Assembly (NCBI RefSeq): GCF_028747205.1
Contig: NZ_CP112880.1
Span: forward strand, 8,147,676-8,211,675
Source: Streptomyces sp. CA-278952
GTDB lineage: Bacteria > Actinomycetota > Actinomycetes > Streptomycetales > Streptomycetaceae
Length of the DNA: 64,000 bases
Direction: 5' to 3'
The notes below the pieces were generated by a model. That model was not told the DNA's origin and made no database searches. It saw only the letters and a program-made list of their open reading frames with translations. The position numbers were made by a program, and so were the translations under genes. Shown here piece after piece: positions 22,998 to 27,994 of this stretch. Each line of letters starts with the position of its first letter. The first letter of the stretch is position 1.

Positions 22998-23843
22998 TCA
23001 GGTTTCGCCGGGCGATCCAGTCACCGCGTCTCTCAAGACCCGGGCGGCCGTCTCCTCCGTTGGCAGTGCGTGTCCAGAGAGGCGGTGGACCATGACCCAG
23101 GTGCCGTCGTCCATGGCACCCGCGAAGACAGAGGCGCCTCGGGTGGCACCGTCGTGCCAGCGGAGCCGTCCGGTCGTCTGCCAGGAGGGGGCAGGCTCGC
23201 CCAGGCGTCGTTCGACGAGCAGCCTGGTGACGAGGTGGGCGGTATCACGAGGGGTGGCCCACAGCCCTCCCGCCGGCAGAATCGCGCCGCTCATGGTCCA
23301 GGGGCGTAAGCGCCGGCCCAGGAAGCCGCGTCCAGCCAGTTGGTTGTCCGGTGGTGGGTTCGAGGTGATCGCGGTGAGGCCCAGGGGCGCGAGTACATGC
23401 TCATGGAGCAGTTCCTCGTACGTCGATCCTGCTCCCGAGGCGAGGGCGGCGCCCAGGAGGGCGTAGCCGAGGTTGGAGTACTCCGCTTCCCGGCCCGGGC
23501 TGCCTGTGGTGAAGGAGTCGAGGTTTCGTACTACCGAGTCCAGGGCTCCGGCGTCGAAGTCGGCGTAGGGGTCGGTTCTGCGTAGGCGGGGTGGGATGCG
23601 GGGCAGGGCCGCGGTGTGCTCCGCGAGGTGTCGCAGGGTGATGCCGGTCCCGGCGGGGGCGGGTAGGAACTCTTCGAGGGCGTCGTCCAGCTGGAGGGTT
23701 CCGGTGGAGGCCAACTGGACGAGGAGGGTTCCGGTCAGTGGCTTGGTGAGCGAGCCGATCTGGACGAAACGGTCGAGGTCGTGGCCGTGGCTGACCTGCG
23801 GCGCGTGGGAACTGCTGAATATGCAGACGGGTACTTGGAGCAT
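22998..23843 (-). CDS. Serine hydrolase of the class C beta-lactamase fold
   Basis: 281 residues. FVQIGSLTKPLTGTLLVQLA contains the SxxK nucleophile/lysine pair, EAEYSNLGYALLGAALASGA supplies the Tyr-x-Asn box, and GAILPAGGLWATPRDTAHLV fits the conserved GG segment. No signal peptide is evident. The N-terminus looks slightly short for the fold. Members include esterases and peptidases as well as beta-lactamases, so the substrate is unknown. It lies 16 bases after the DCC gene on the same strand and is probably cotranscribed. Confidence 0.8.
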   Translation of the reverse strand: MLQVPVCIFSSSHAPQVSHGHDLDRFVQIGSLTKPLTGTLLVQLASTGTLQLDDALEEFLPAPAGTGITLRHLAEHTAALPRIPPRLRRTDPYADFDAGALDSVVRNLDSFTTGSPGREAEYSNLGYALLGAALASGAGSTYEELLHEHVLAPLGLTAITSNPPPDNQLAGRGFLGRRLRPWTMSGAILPAGGLWATPRDTAHLVTRLLVERRLGEPAPSWQTTGRLRWHDGATRGASVFAGAMDDGTWVMVHRLSGHALPTEETAARVLRDAVTGSPGET

Positions 23844-23859
23844 GGGGGTGCTTGTGCTT

Positions 23860-24267
23860 TCAGTTGTGGGGGTGGGGCACCGCGCAGGCCGCAGTACCGC
23901 CGGGCATCCGCTGCCGGTTCCTGGCCACCCAGCGGTGGATCAGGTTCGCCGCCGGGCGGATCAGGGGCAGCCGCAGGAACCCTCCGACGCCCCGGTAGGC
24001 GCGGGCCGGGGAGGATCCGAGAAGACCGGCCAGGGCGGCGACCCCGCCGCCGCGTACTCGGTCTCCGTCGAAGAGGAGAACTTCCCGGTCCAAGCGTTCC
24101 AGGTGCCGTTCGGTCAGCTCTGGTGGAAGCATCTGCCAGGCGACCGCCGCCGTGCGGGGCTTGGCTCGCAGCTGGATCTGCCGGACAGCGGCCTGGCAGA
24201 AGCCGCAGTCACCGTCGAAGGCAAGCACGGTGCGTCCTTCTGCGTCACTGGTCGCGGTGTCGTTCAT
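23860..24267 (-). CDS. DCC family thiol-disulfide oxidoreductase (DUF393)
   Basis: About 135 residues from ATG 24267. The family name-giving motif is present as VLAFDGDCGFCQAAVRQIQL (DxDCxFC), a thioredoxin-like CxxC arrangement. LPPELTERHLERLDREVLLF and GGVAALAGLL follow the usual pattern, and IRPAANLIHRWVARNRQRM closes it. From memory, DCC proteins are often encoded beside or fused to HTTM-domain membrane proteins, and an HTTM gene lies upstream on this same strand, now separated by an IS. A role in oxidising or reducing a secreted peptide is inferred. Confidence 0.85.
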   Translation of the reverse strand: MNDTATSDAEGRTVLAFDGDCGFCQAAVRQIQLRAKPRTAAVAWQMLPPELTERHLERLDREVLLFDGDRVRGGGVAALAGLLGSSPARAYRGVGGFLRLPLIRPAANLIHRWVARNRQRMPGGTAACAVPHPHN

Positions 24268-24328
24268 GACGTGCTCTCCATCGCTGGGCCGTTCTCGGAG
24301 TGGGGAAGTGCCGACGGACACGTGGGTC

Positions 24329-24832
24329 TCACATCAAGGGTGACATCCAGTCTCCGAGGACTGCTTCGCGCTCATGCGAGTGCAGGACGTCGGACGGCTG
24401 ATTGTCCTGCCACCACTGCGTCAGCAGGGCCGGTGAGGCGCCGCCCCGCACGAAGTGGGAGAGCAGACCGAGCGAGAGGTCGACCTCTCGCTGGGTGTAC
24501 GCGGTGGCCGCGCCGGAGAAGACCGGCGTTTCGTCGCGCTGGCCGTCCCGGGCGCACACCACTGCGGTCATCATCGACGGACCACCGGGGCCCCAGGCGT
24601 TCAGCGCTGCGGCGACGACGCTCGTCACCCGGGTCGCCCACCGGGCAGCGGATGATCGGACCGGAACATCCAGGACTCGCAGGTCTGCGATATCGGTCCA
24701 GGACCACGCTTGTTGCTGGACGCCTTCACCGATCGAGAGCCGGGCCGGGAAGAGGAATACACCGGGATCCTCCTCGGTAGGAGGTGAGCCCAGGCATACC
24801 CTGTCCTGTTCTATCCAGAACAGGCCGATCAT
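24329..24832 (-). CDS. Hypothetical protein of the DCC gene cluster
   Basis: About 167 residues from ATG 24832 (an upstream ATG at 24880 adds 16). MIGLFWIEQDRVCLGSPPTE, then WSWTDIADLRVLDVPV and TSVVAAALNAWGPGGPSMMT suggest a small beta-rich domain followed by a helix. QREVDLSLGLLSHFVRGGAS and LLTQWWQDNQ close it. The layout resembles Streptomyces proteins of unknown function. It precedes the DCC and hydrolase genes at short spacing, so the three probably form one operon. Confidence 0.65.
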   Translation of the reverse strand: MIGLFWIEQDRVCLGSPPTEEDPGVFLFPARLSIGEGVQQQAWSWTDIADLRVLDVPVRSSAARWATRVTSVVAAALNAWGPGGPSMMTAVVCARDGQRDETPVFSGAATAYTQREVDLSLGLLSHFVRGGASPALLTQWWQDNQPSDVLHSHEREAVLGDWMSPLM

Positions 24833-25040
24833 ACATCCTTGCCGGTTGGGCCCGCCGTCCTGGGGCGATGGCGTTTCCATTCTTCAGCTCCGTTTCTCGG
24901 TCATGGGACGCGGGTGTGTCATCATCGGCGGCGGATCGCCGTCCGAGGAGACCGAACGCCGGTGGCTCCTCTTCGCCGGCCGGAATCGCTCGGCTGTCAG
25001 GTGAACCAGCGTTCGGTCCCGCGTTTTGGACCGACACTAA

Positions 25041-25927
25041 CTGATCGTTTCAGAATGAGATCGGTGTGGTGGCTTGGCAGTTGGGAGTTGGGTCGGCAGG
25101 ATCTGTTGGGTGTCTGCTGATCTTGTGCCTGATGACCTGTGGGAACGCATAGCCCCGCTGCTGCCGGTTCGACCGCCTCGACGACACCGGTATCCCGGGC
25201 GGCTGCCGGCCGATGACCGTGCTGCTCTGCGGGGCATCGTCTACGTGCTGCGCAAGAGTGTGAGCTGGCGCGACGTTCCCGCAGAGCTGGTGGGCTGCAG
25301 CGGCGTGACAGCCTGGCGGCGCCTGCGGGACTGGACCGAGGCCGGAGTGTGGCCCCGCCTGCATGAGGTTCTTCTGGCGGAACTGCGTAAAGAGGGCCTG
25401 CTGGAGATGGACGACGCCGCGATCGACGGCTCGCACGTCAGGGCTCTCAAAGGGGGGCTCACACCGGACCTTCGCCGGTCGACCGGGCCCGGCCCGGCAG
25501 CAAGCACCACCTGATCGTCGACCGGCACGGAACCCCGCTCGCCGTTTCTCTGACCAGCGGAAACCGTCACGATGTTACCCAGCTCATGCCTCTGCTGGAC
25601 GCCATACCCCGCATCCGCGGCCTGCGGGGCCGGCCACGCCAGCGGCCCCGGCGACTGTTCGCCGACCGCGGGTACGACTACGACAAGTACCGGCGTCTCG
25701 TCCGCGCCCGTGGGATCACACCCAAGATCGCCCGACGCGGCACCCCGCACGGCTCGGGACTGGGCAAGACACGCTGGGTCGTCGAGCGGACCTTCGCCTG
25801 GCTCCACCAGTTCAAACGACTGCGCATCCGCTACGAGATACGAGCCGACCTCCACCTCGCACTACTCCAACTCGCCTGCAGCATCATCTGCTTGAGACGA
25901 CTCCGTACCTCATTCTGAAACGATCAG
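25041..25927 (+). mobile_element. IS5-family insertion sequence with TAA target duplication
   Basis: 887 bp. The ends CTGATCGTTTCAGAATGAG (25041-25059) and the exact reverse complement (25909-25927) are flanked on both sides by TAA (25038-25040 and 25928-25930), a 3-bp target duplication. One transposase in two overlapping frames fills it. It has inserted between the HTTM gene and the DCC operon, all of which run on the minus strand. It looks young because the repeats and duplication are intact. Confidence 0.9.
25110..25918 (+). CDS. IS5-family transposase with -1 frameshift
   Basis: The first frame from GTG 25110 (VSADLVPDDLWERIAPLLPV) carries VSWRDVPAELVGCSGVTAWR and the first Asp in DDAAIDGSHVRALKGGLT. 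After -1 slippage at AAAGGGGGG the second frame reads AHTGPSPVDRARPGSKHHLI, FADRGYDYDKYRRLVRARGI (second Asp) and GKTRWVVERTFAWLHQFKRL (Glu). The heptamer position matches that of the IS near 11.4 kb, as expected for programmed frameshifting. Product about 270 residues. Confidence 0.88.
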
Positions 25928-26014
25928 TAAGCAGCCCGCATAACCGTGTGACCTCATTCTGGCCACGCAGGGCAGGGGGCAACCAAGGCAGGTTCTGAGG
26001 TGCCAGGCAGTTGG

Positions 26015-27030
26015 CTACCCCGCTTTCCCGGACGCGACAGGCTCCGAGGCGGGGTGTTCTCCGCTCATGGGCCTTCCGCCGGCCGGCGGCTGTTCGAGCC
26101 TGCGGGAGCGGGCCTTCTGGAGCCGCCCGGCCCCGTAGGTGACGGCCTCGTCAAGCCCTCTGCTCAGGAAAATCAGATCGCAGGCCACCATGGTCAGGGC
26201 GAAGCCGGTCAGCCCCATGAGCATTCCGAAACCGAGGTGGAACCCGATGGACATGACCGCAGCCCAAGGCCGTAGGGCAGGCACCAGTATTCCCAGCGGG
26301 AAGTAGACGAGGAAGAGCACTGTCACGTAGGTCCCGGAGAAGACCAGGAAATCGTTCTCGTACACAAAGTGCGACAGTGAGGGGAAGCTGAACTCCGGAA
26401 CCCTGAGGACGTAGAAGAGGGCGGTGCCATCCTGCCACATTTTCCCTTGGACCTTGTAGAGGCCGCTGACCACGTAAACCAGACATATCTGGAGTGCGAT
26501 GGCAAGCACGCCGAGGTTGTGCAGCGGCGTCGCTGTGCACGAATCTGTTCGGGGAGGCGGTCTACTATTTTTGCACCTATCCCACTGGGAAAGGAGAAGC
26601 GGTCGTAGCAGCGTGTCAGAAGGAGCATAGGGATGACGAGGTAGGCAAGGTTGTCCCCGCCATCCAGCAAGACCGTCTGACGCTCATATATTGACCACAG
26701 AAAAACCCAGTGGACGGCCAGACCTATCCGTCCCCCCACCCCGAGCATGACAAGAAGTGCGGCGATGATCCCCAGATGGAACACGATCTGGAACCAGGCG
26801 TCGGAAGAACTGACGGCGTAAAGACTGAAGGAGCCGTTCTCAGCGACTCGGCCAGTAAATTCCTGCCTCGGCAGAACACTATCGAGACCGAACAGAAATT
26901 CGCGGTCACCGTACTGACTGATGTAGTACATGAGGCCGACGAACCCGAGAAGAACCCGGGCACCCGATGCACCAACCACACTGACCGGACTCGACGACCA
27001 CCCGTCGACCTTTGTGAGGATCCTCCTCAT
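26015..27030 (-). pseudogene. HTTM-domain (SdpB/VKGC-like) membrane protein, frameshifted
   Basis: ATG 27030 overlaps the preceding stop (ATGA). The first part, MRRILTKVDGWSSSPVSVVG, continues through several membrane helices (GARVLLGFVGLMYYISQYGD, FHLGIIAALLVMLGVGGRIG, DNLAYLVIPMLLLTRCYDRF) to about 26,540. The continuation PLHNLGVLAIALQICLVYVV, GLYKVQGKMWQDGTALFYVL and VLFLVYFPLGILVPALRPWA is in another frame and ends at 26015. The lQICLVY..GLyK.QG.mW..GTAL block is the HTTM signature shared with SdpB. One indel near 26,525-26,545 breaks it. This may be decay or a sequencing error. Confidence 0.8.
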
Positions 27031-27665
27031 GTGAGAGTTCCAACCTCTCTCCAGGACAGGTCCTGATATTTGGTAGACCCCTTGGCTGATTCGTTCTTCC
27101 GCTGGGACCACGGCGGCAGCTCATGCACGTAGACACGCACCTGTACGGCAGCAGGGCGGCCGGCGCACACACCTGGCATCTGCGTCAGGGAGTACCTGCT
27201 CAGGAACCTTTCAGCCTGTTCCCGGGACGTCTTCTCGTACGGCAGGAGCGGGAGCTGCTTCTTCTTCGCTTCCTTTTCGGTGTCCCGCAGCCGCTGGAGG
27301 ACCGGGTCACTGCTGTCCAGCTGCATAACGGCCCCACTGACCAGCCGGTTTATACGTGACGGGAAGAAGCGGTCGCCCTGGACCTTCTGAACGTACGGGC
27401 CGGTGACATCATAGAAATCAGTCACCGCGCCGTCGGCGCATCGGGCACGGGACAAAATTCCGCGCTCGTCCGAGAGCGGGTCCGGGGCAAACAGCATCCA
27501 GTTCTGAGCCAGATAGGGCTGCATTACGTCGTTGACCTGGCTGTAATACTTCACCTTCATCGGAGTCAGAGGCATCTGAGAGAAGGAAGCGAACAGAAAA
27601 TAGATGCCCAGGAGGGCAGCGCCGACAATCAGCGCCGCCCTCCGGACCATGAGATGTTGTGTCAC
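27027..27665 (-). CDS. DUF5819 / SdpA-like membrane-anchored protein
   Basis: 212 residues from GTG 27665, which overlaps the upstream stop as GTGA. One N-terminal helix (ALIVGAALLGIYFLFASFSQ) anchors the protein. The outer domain has YSQVNDVMQPYLAQNWMLFA followed by PDPLSDERGILSRARC, the W-x-x-FAPDP signature of DUF5819 and SdpA-type proteins. The C-terminus includes CAGRPAAVQVRVYVHELPPW. SdpA and SdpB together are needed to produce active SDP toxin from SdpC in Bacillus, a Firmicute precedent. The same job here is inferred from order and coupling. Confidence 0.8.
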   Translation of the reverse strand: MTQHLMVRRAALIVGAALLGIYFLFASFSQMPLTPMKVKYYSQVNDVMQPYLAQNWMLFAPDPLSDERGILSRARCADGAVTDFYDVTGPYVQKVQGDRFFPSRINRLVSGAVMQLDSSDPVLQRLRDTEKEAKKKQLPLLPYEKTSREQAERFLSRYSLTQMPGVCAGRPAAVQVRVYVHELPPWSQRKNESAKGSTKYQDLSWREVGTLT

Positions 27666-27994
27666 TTGTCGAAGACCGTGTCGATCGCCTCGGCGTTGCC
27701 GATCTTGTCAGCCGGCGCGACAGACCCGCCGAGGAAGTTGCCCGCGACCTCCCCGGCCGCCTTCCCGACGGACGAGCACGCGGCCTTGGCGTGCACGTAC
27801 GCCTTGCCCGCCGCCTTGCCCGCTGCCTTGACAAGGCCGCTGAGCGCCTGCGGGCGGACGTCGTCGGTCTGCTGGGCGGAGGTCTGGGCGGAGACCTGGG
27901 CAGCCGGAACCGAAGCCTGCGCGGAACCCTGCGTGCTGATCACCAGGGCGACGCCGCCCAGAGCAATGCCGGCCGCTGCAACAAACTTCTTCAT
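27662..27994 (-). CDS. Small secreted Ala/Gly-rich helical peptide precursor
   Basis: 110 residues from ATG 27994, seven bases after AAGGAG. A longer in-frame start at 28021 lacks such a site. Signal peptide MKKFVAAAGIALGGVALVIS ends near AQA-S. The mature part has a Gln/Ala/Ser linker, then an amphipathic run SGLVKAAGKAAGKAYVHAKA followed by one cysteine and VGKAAGEVAGNFLGG. KxxGxAxG-type spacing suggests a membrane-active helix, as in bacteriocins. It is the first gene of a coupled three-gene operon (GTGA, then ATGA) with DUF5819 and HTTM proteins, so it is the candidate toxin, analogous to SdpC but not recognisably homologous. Confidence 0.75.
   Translation of the reverse strand: MKKFVAAAGIALGGVALVISTQGSAQASVPAAQVSAQTSAQQTDDVRPQALSGLVKAAGKAAGKAYVHAKAACSSVGKAAGEVAGNFLGGSVAPADKIGNAEAIDTVFDK

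Follow-up and report, generated by a model that had tools for sequence, protein, structure and literature searches.

A decayed cassette for a small secreted, putatively SDP-like peptide with a C-terminal FD tail near the end of a Streptomyces chromosome

What is made by three coupled minus-strand genes encoding a small secreted-type precursor peptide, a DUF5819 protein and an HTTM membrane protein? The genes lie in the terminal 64 kb (64,000 nucleotides, the whole stretch analyzed, hereafter the window) of the 8.21-Mb chromosome of the soil bacterium Streptomyces sp. CA-278952, and the precursor starts 36,006 bases from the end. An initial annotation had proposed a killing-peptide system with the gene set of the Bacillus SdpC/SdpA/SdpB system. 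Our analysis suggests, with a probability of about 60%, that a mobile cassette has decayed at this locus; intact versions would produce a small, secreted antibacterial peptide of SDP-like type that probably acts on membranes, with the DUF5819 and HTTM proteins maturing a C-terminally tagged precursor. The initial annotation is thus partly supported: the cassette is real and its kind was a good lead, but identity with SdpA and SdpC was overstated.

The window precursor comprises a Sec-type signal at about residues 1-28, a spacer, VRPQ (46-49), an Ala/Gly/Lys-rich core and the C-terminal DTVFDK. An AAGGAG site stands 5' of its ATG. As had been described, the precursor and DUF5819 genes are joined by a GTGA overlap, and the DUF5819 and HTTM genes (start 27030) by an ATGA overlap. 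The precursor has no match in Pfam and no credible one in NCBIfam, and searches of both databases with ten diverse precursors likewise yielded nothing credible. At E ≤ 0.001 it has 23 homologs, all the named ones from Streptomyces. The invariant columns of the precursor alignment A1 are M1, P48, F108 and D109. In the 23 Streptomyces-type precursors, the best-conserved part is the C-terminal six residues, with a mean top-residue frequency of 0.83, against 0.77 for the signal, 0.57 for the core, 0.53 for VxPQ, 0.40 for the spacer and 0.35 for the segment counted as tail. The precursors thus show a signal-like N-terminus, a conserved proline (often P-Q), a variable Ala/Gly-rich core and a near-invariant hydrophobic-FD(K/R) end, followed by the DUF5819 and HTTM genes. 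P-Q as a fixed motif was rejected, only P being fixed, and the single cysteine and KAAG repeats first noticed in the window peptide are marks of one branch, many relatives having no cysteine. Divergent Streptomyces cassettes, with DUF5819 proteins 36-41% identical to that of the window, carry different precursors that keep the FD end.

Within a sample of 199 Streptomyces genomes, in which DUF5819 was counted as strong above 200 bits, precursor matches were found in 10 and strong DUF5819 matches also in 10. Nine genomes have both, and in all nine the precursor lies directly 5' of DUF5819. Of the others, G191 has a precursor-like match only and G115 (locus L042) a DUF5819 gene only; the latter lacks about the first 28 residues of DUF5819 as well as the precursor, i.e., the start of the cassette is missing. 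The expected conservation of a small secreted peptide with DUF5819 and HTTM is supported by the homologs, by adjacency in 9 of 10 precursor-positive genomes and by synteny across phyla. DUF5819 matches of any strength, mostly weak, occur in 169 of the 199 genomes. The window's own genome contains a second, weak DUF5819-like stretch (L002, G000:C1:4064036-4064272, 22.7 bits). Two ORFs (open reading frames), that of G191 (L056:7125-7484) and a second one in L045 (L045:11354-11692), were rejected as precursors of this class, their likeness being N-terminal only (residues 1-87 and 2-77) and their end YVKK, without FD; G191 is still included in the 10 precursor-positive genomes. These secreted-type ORFs with a precursor-like N-terminus perhaps form a separate small family.

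Beyond the genus, we scanned contigs of named genomes, taking the best 80 of at least 473 relatives (L063-L142) and cutting them by similarity rank, before counting, into three tiers. An FD-ending ORF was present within 800 nt upstream of the DUF5819+HTTM pair in 19/19 near loci (L063-L081), 12/27 intermediate loci (L082-L108) and 0/34 remote loci (L109-L142). Among mechanical control ORFs (200 aa or longer), FD ends were seen in 6/362, 0/269 and 2/726 cases, respectively (8/1357 in total). A related motif, with a hydrophobic residue, S or T before FD and at most four residues after it, was found in 43 of 6690 ORFs, and 33 of these 43 lie on the same strand within 1200 nt before DUF5819. As the motif was first noticed in part of the counted loci, the contrast between tiers, and not a P value, is the evidence. 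Some genomes or plasmids also occur twice (L068/G175, L069 and L080/G157, L112/G120; L158 = L222), which leaves some overlap between the tiers and the genus sample. HTTM lies downstream of DUF5819 in 79 of the 80 loci; in L097, the sequence ends 58 bases past the DUF5819 ORF.

The small ORFs end in VFDQ (Virgibacillus, Halobacillus), VFDN (Anoxybacillus, Brevibacillus), VFDR (Viridibacillus), AFDY/LFDY in two tandem copies (a Chloroflexota metagenome-assembled genome, MAG) and SSFDK in two tandem copies (Hymenobacter). Going by the titles of the records, we take the FD-ending loci to represent four phyla. In an alignment of 24 diverse precursors (A4), D is present in 24, F in 23 and P in 22; its members were picked for ending in or near FD, and it illustrates the motif without testing it. 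Precursors of both alignments measure 91-134 aa. Tandem precursors occur in L066, L087, L107 and plasmid L152; the L107 copies have diverged in the middle but show a single difference in their last ten residues. Among eight plasmid records, three have FD-ending precursors (L150, L151 and L152, the last with two) and one a variant (L154, ..EFAR); in two, ice-binding proteins stand in this position, in another a 711-aa protein whose C-terminus resembles a membrane anchor, and the last has no candidate. The C-terminal FD tag is the new point of this study: a tail common to precursors of such distant bacteria may be a tag recognized by the processing proteins.

That the small ORF is conserved but untranslated, or is an unrelated gene whose motif is a coincidence, seems very improbable. 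Against it stand the 23 homologs, the conserved ends, a GC content at third codon positions of 0.87 (computed on a longer ORF), the overlap with the next start codon and the recurrence across phyla.

A weightier, although still rather unlikely, alternative is that the peptide is no toxin, and that DUF5819 and HTTM form a general maturation pair for exported proteins, acting here on a small peptide with a signalling, surface-active or redox-cofactor role. Since the FD peptide is absent from all 34 remote loci and ice-binding proteins precede two plasmid pairs, the pair probably has further clients. HTTM also occurs in the vitamin-K-dependent carboxylase (PMC5343777) and in a linaridin cluster (PMC9927463), as far as the excerpts of these two papers describe them. 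The proposal that a small secreted ORF accompanies DUF5819+HTTM pairs holds for the near clade and fails, by our motif test, for the remote pairs; the toxin link is thus not extended to all such pairs. What argues against a non-toxin is the variable core between conserved ends, the tandem precursors and the plasmid carriage, all typical of bacteriocins, together with the fact that SdpB is the best NCBIfam match for each of seven scanned HTTM relatives.

Several observations concern the pair itself. In the remote-type plasmid pairs L155 and L156, an ice-binding family protein precedes DUF5819+HTTM, and several remote chromosomal pairs (among L109-L142) are preceded by large secreted-type proteins; these may be other clients. 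A B. subtilis plasmid (L153, CP123774.1) carries the pair with no recognizable precursor upstream. Loci L091, L095, L106, L108, L113 and L137 (Phytoactinopolyspora and relatives) have two pairs each, and in L091, L095, L106 and L108 one pair is preceded by a secreted-type protein of 582-666 aa that carries LPDTG at its end.

How close is the cassette to SdpABC? SdpA and SdpB are required for the processing of SdpC, whose product collapses the proton motive force (PMC6818787, in the portion consulted). At E up to 1, the window DUF5819 protein did not match the SdpA models PF17418 and TIGR04034, ten DUF5819 relatives did not match PF17418, and neither the window precursor nor ten other precursors matched the SdpC model TIGR04032. 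As a control, Streptomyces G013 (L062:571-2885) has authentic SdpC and SdpA genes side by side, with an HTTM gene after them: its SdpA scores 123.7 bits to TIGR04034 and its SdpC 92.5 bits to TIGR04032, just under the cut-off of 99.2, and G013 alone among 21 genomes has a PF17418 match. The assignment of the cassette as the gene set of SdpC/SdpA/SdpB is therefore not supported, and real SdpA and SdpC genes are found apart from it in Streptomyces. The HTTM protein was rightly called SdpB-like in the sense of related, as seven intact relatives reach 66-86 bits to the SdpB model TIGR04033; these scores, like those of the window halves (Table 1), are below its cut-off of 178.4.

That the cassette is nevertheless a true, divergent member of the SdpABC family appears unlikely. 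Its gene order is the same as the SdpC-SdpA-HTTM order of L062, its HTTM protein is related to SdpB, and comparison of the DUF5819 and SdpA profiles brings the transmembrane, PxN and QxWxxF stretches into register (an unrelated control gave a probability of 0.3%); their predicted elements are also similarly ordered. Neither DUF5819 nor SdpA had a convincing match in fold searches. The unmatched SdpA and SdpC models, the HTTM scores below the SdpB cut-off, and short precursors with an FD tail, as opposed to the 222 aa of the L062 SdpC without an FD end, argue against membership. SdpABC, in B. subtilis and in L062, and the window cassette share a secreted-type precursor, a small transmembrane-anchored partner and an HTTM/SdpB-family membrane protein; the latter differs in having DUF5819 instead of a PF17418 SdpA, with DCC and hydrolase genes alongside. 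We regard the cassette as SDP-like and not as SdpABC as currently modelled. KNWIW in the core of the Chloroflexota precursor (L087:5267-5566) resembles KNWFW of the L062 SdpC, possibly by chance.

Other known systems share some of these traits. The YitPOM/YIT system is an SDP paralog whose processed C-terminal region differs in sequence, but YitP and YitO are about 50% similar to SdpA and SdpB, whereas the window DUF5819 protein has no SdpA match (PMC6818787, same portion). Brevibacterium SDP-like clusters, compared here by their description in the accessible text of PMC5719810 only, are likewise weak sdpABC homologs in a genomic island of an actinobacterium. Linaridin clusters such as that of corynaridin combine a ribosomal peptide precursor with a hydrolase and an HTTM protein; they differ by a LinL protein, a PxxxTP leader and an SDR, and the excerpt of PMC9927463 does not mention DUF5819. 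No PxxxTP was seen by eye in the window precursor. Vitamin-K-dependent gamma-carboxylase (GGCX) also has an HTTM domain and recognizes its substrate through a separate peptide signal, but it is one polypeptide with its own lumenal part, and carboxylation is not known for the cassette proteins. The stretch SG.YKV.G..WQ.GTAL is invariant in an alignment of 14 HTTM sequences. Its lysine, in SGLYK, may be the counterpart of the GGCX catalytic base, a residue that the excerpt of PMC5343777 does not name. The literature portions consulted gave no mechanism for SdpA or SdpB; in open-licence full texts (few subscription journals and no preprints covered) no mention of DUF5819 was found, and the words 'HTTM domain' appear in two of these texts.

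The genes downstream of HTTM raise a question of their own. In fetched Streptomyces regions, the precursor gene is succeeded by DUF5819 and HTTM; the 183-aa protein and then DCC come next in some loci each, and the serine hydrolase closes the set. This hydrolase lies after HTTM in 14/14 loci L042-L055 (the precursor being missing in L042 and L054) and in 19/19 loci L063-L081; the same search found no such hydrolase in the other six Streptomyces regions (L056-L061). The hypothetical protein, DCC and hydrolase genes, which according to the initial annotation may belong to the same locus, are indeed contiguous with HTTM in L042 and on the S. parvus plasmid. The suggested link between DCC and HTTM was also found: DCC lies within the cassette in 5 of the 19 loci L063-L081, makes up the C-terminal end (residues 338-443) of a fusion with HTTM in L084, and in plasmid L152 (Virgibacillus) a single 446-aa ORF matches both profiles, i.e., is a fusion. 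The 183-aa protein has matches in 44 of the 199 genomes, 37 of them below 100 bits.

It is quite conceivable, at somewhat less than even odds, that the hydrolase, DCC and hypothetical protein are the self-protection half of the system and not its maturation half. The hydrolase exceeds 200 bits in 39 of the 199 genomes, which include all 10 with strong DUF5819; this wide occurrence without the other genes makes immunity, rather than maturation, possible. From 20 of the 29 genomes lacking strong DUF5819 the hydrolase region was fetched: DUF5819 was present in 0/20, an HTTM remnant in 1/20, DCC directly before the hydrolase in 5/20 and the 183-aa protein in 3/20. The trio is kept beside an HTTM remnant in L221 and without DUF5819 in plasmid regions L158-L160, and in the window it is intact behind a broken HTTM gene. 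In L160, a partial HTTM lies about 3.6 kb ahead of the trio, and the opposite strand gives only a weak match (E 2e-3) to the precursor profile. The pattern of hydrolases standing alone is compatible with immunity or with an independent gene, and speaks less for a role in maturation only. Processing is favored instead by the constant position of the hydrolase after HTTM and by the DCC-HTTM fusions, which tie DCC to maturation. Also, transglutaminase-like proteins (L082, L084, L085, L087 and, after other genes, L092) or beta-lactamase-2 family proteins (L100, L101) lie downstream of the pair in Bacillota and one Chloroflexota MAG, which fits processing. The orphan hydrolase of L158 is itself split, and 15 of 20 orphan hydrolases have no adjoining DCC and may be unrelated housekeeping genes.

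The initial annotation did not mention that one of the three genes is broken. The precursor and DUF5819 frames are intact, but the HTTM gene is frameshifted: homology is lost at about 26.5 kb in the frame from 27030 and continues in another, and both halves align consecutively to one intact plasmid-borne HTTM protein (Table 1). The SGLYK..G..WQ.GTAL stretch is located in the 3' half. With PF05090 (cut-off 27.7 bits) the 3' half scores 25.6 bits and the 5' half has no match; plasmid relatives are annotated as HTTM domain-containing. Because of this frameshift, the cassette of the window strain should be silent as a producer. An insertion sequence follows, present at five chromosomal places including the window, 886 bp each (25046-25931) and all at 100% identity, in agreement with its description as young; many plasmid relatives are annotated as IS5 family transposase. 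The syntenic cassette is uninterrupted on the Streptomyces parvus plasmid pG-2_2 (L150).

Table 1. Features of the cassette in the window
Feature	Coordinates	Strand	Remarks
Precursor peptide gene, 110 aa	27662..27994	-	Frame intact; homologs and alignment
DUF5819 protein, 212 aa	27027..27665	-	PF19136 92.7 bits; frame intact
HTTM (SdpB-like) gene, 5' half	26527..27030	-	TIGR04033 24.7 bits; 85% identical to S. parvus HTTM 1-164
HTTM (SdpB-like) gene, 3' half, other frame	26015..26509	-	TIGR04033 50.6 bits; 80% identical to S. parvus HTTM 175-347
IS5-type insertion sequence, between HTTM and downstream genes	25040..25928	.	Inverted repeats (outer ends)
Hypothetical protein, 183 aa	24329..24880	-	Occurs in some cassettes
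DCC1-like thiol-disulfide oxidoreductase	23860..24267	-	PF04134 42.3 bits
Beta-lactamase-fold serine hydrolase, 281 aa	22998..23843	-	PF00144 119.8 bits; SLTK at 31, YSN at 122

The DUF5819 protein has a transmembrane-like helix at its N-terminus and a QxWxLFAPxP motif, is remotely SdpA-like, and was modelled by AlphaFold2 with a pLDDT (predicted local distance difference test) of 88. It passes the gathering score of PF19136 (27.1), as DCC does that of PF04134 (27.8); of the profile matches foreseen by the initial annotation, these two were obtained; no match to the SdpA models was found, and from the broken HTTM gene only the 3' half gave a PF05090 score. The hydrolase passes PF00144 (cut-off 27), has both SxxK and YxN, and its nearest solved structures in the PDB are a D-Ala carboxypeptidase and a D-peptidase.

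For the proposed SDP-like cassette, Sec would export the precursor, and the membrane-anchored DUF5819 protein would bind the FD tail and pass the peptide on to the membrane enzyme, HTTM. DCC, which with an acyl-enzyme type hydrolase often completes the set, could provide thiol redox power or disulfide exchange for the HTTM step. Removal of the pro-part and the acidic tail would free the core peptide, which would target membranes of competing bacteria; the hydrolase would serve either trimming or protection of the producer. The killing activity of the peptide is what we infer from these comparisons.

Several points weigh against this explanation. An FD-ending ORF is lacking upstream in 15/27 intermediate and 34/34 remote loci, and variant ends occur (L100 ..IFNK, L086 ..LLDPAR, L096 ..EFGR, L154 ..EFAR). 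The Q of P-Q is present in just 11/24 (A1) and 15/24 (A4) precursors. The motif was first seen in loci later counted, only the plasmid records being partly independent, and the DUF5819-SdpA profile comparison gives a probability of just 25-27%. The amphipathicity of the window core is not clearly above that of shuffled sequences (0.08 of shuffles reach it); the same is true of several other precursors, while many Streptomyces members are above. Given this mixed result, an amphipathic helix was dropped as proof of antimicrobial nature. Also discarded was the JUQZ-1/BLB8 bacteriocin, to which residues 1-39 of a single Bacillota precursor showed weak similarity in NCBIfam (E 0.075); the consulted part of PMC11747845 describes a 12 kDa protein, without a link to DUF5819 or HTTM.

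More broadly, and more tentatively, the cassettes might represent a cross-phylum class of ribosomal peptides bearing a C-terminal hydrophobic-FD(K/R/Q/N) tag. After export, DUF5819 would bind these precursors and HTTM, as a member of the vitamin-K-carboxylase superfamily, would modify or cleave them, with DCC as thiol partner and an antibacterial peptide as client. If true, this would be a split bacterial analogue of the carboxylase, in which separate genes provide for recognition (DUF5819), catalysis in the membrane (HTTM) and the supply of redox power (DCC). A near-invariant short tail next to DUF5819+HTTM pairs makes the recognition step testable by simple residue replacement, and the FD tail offers a rule for finding small precursors at present unannotated or called 'hypothetical protein'.

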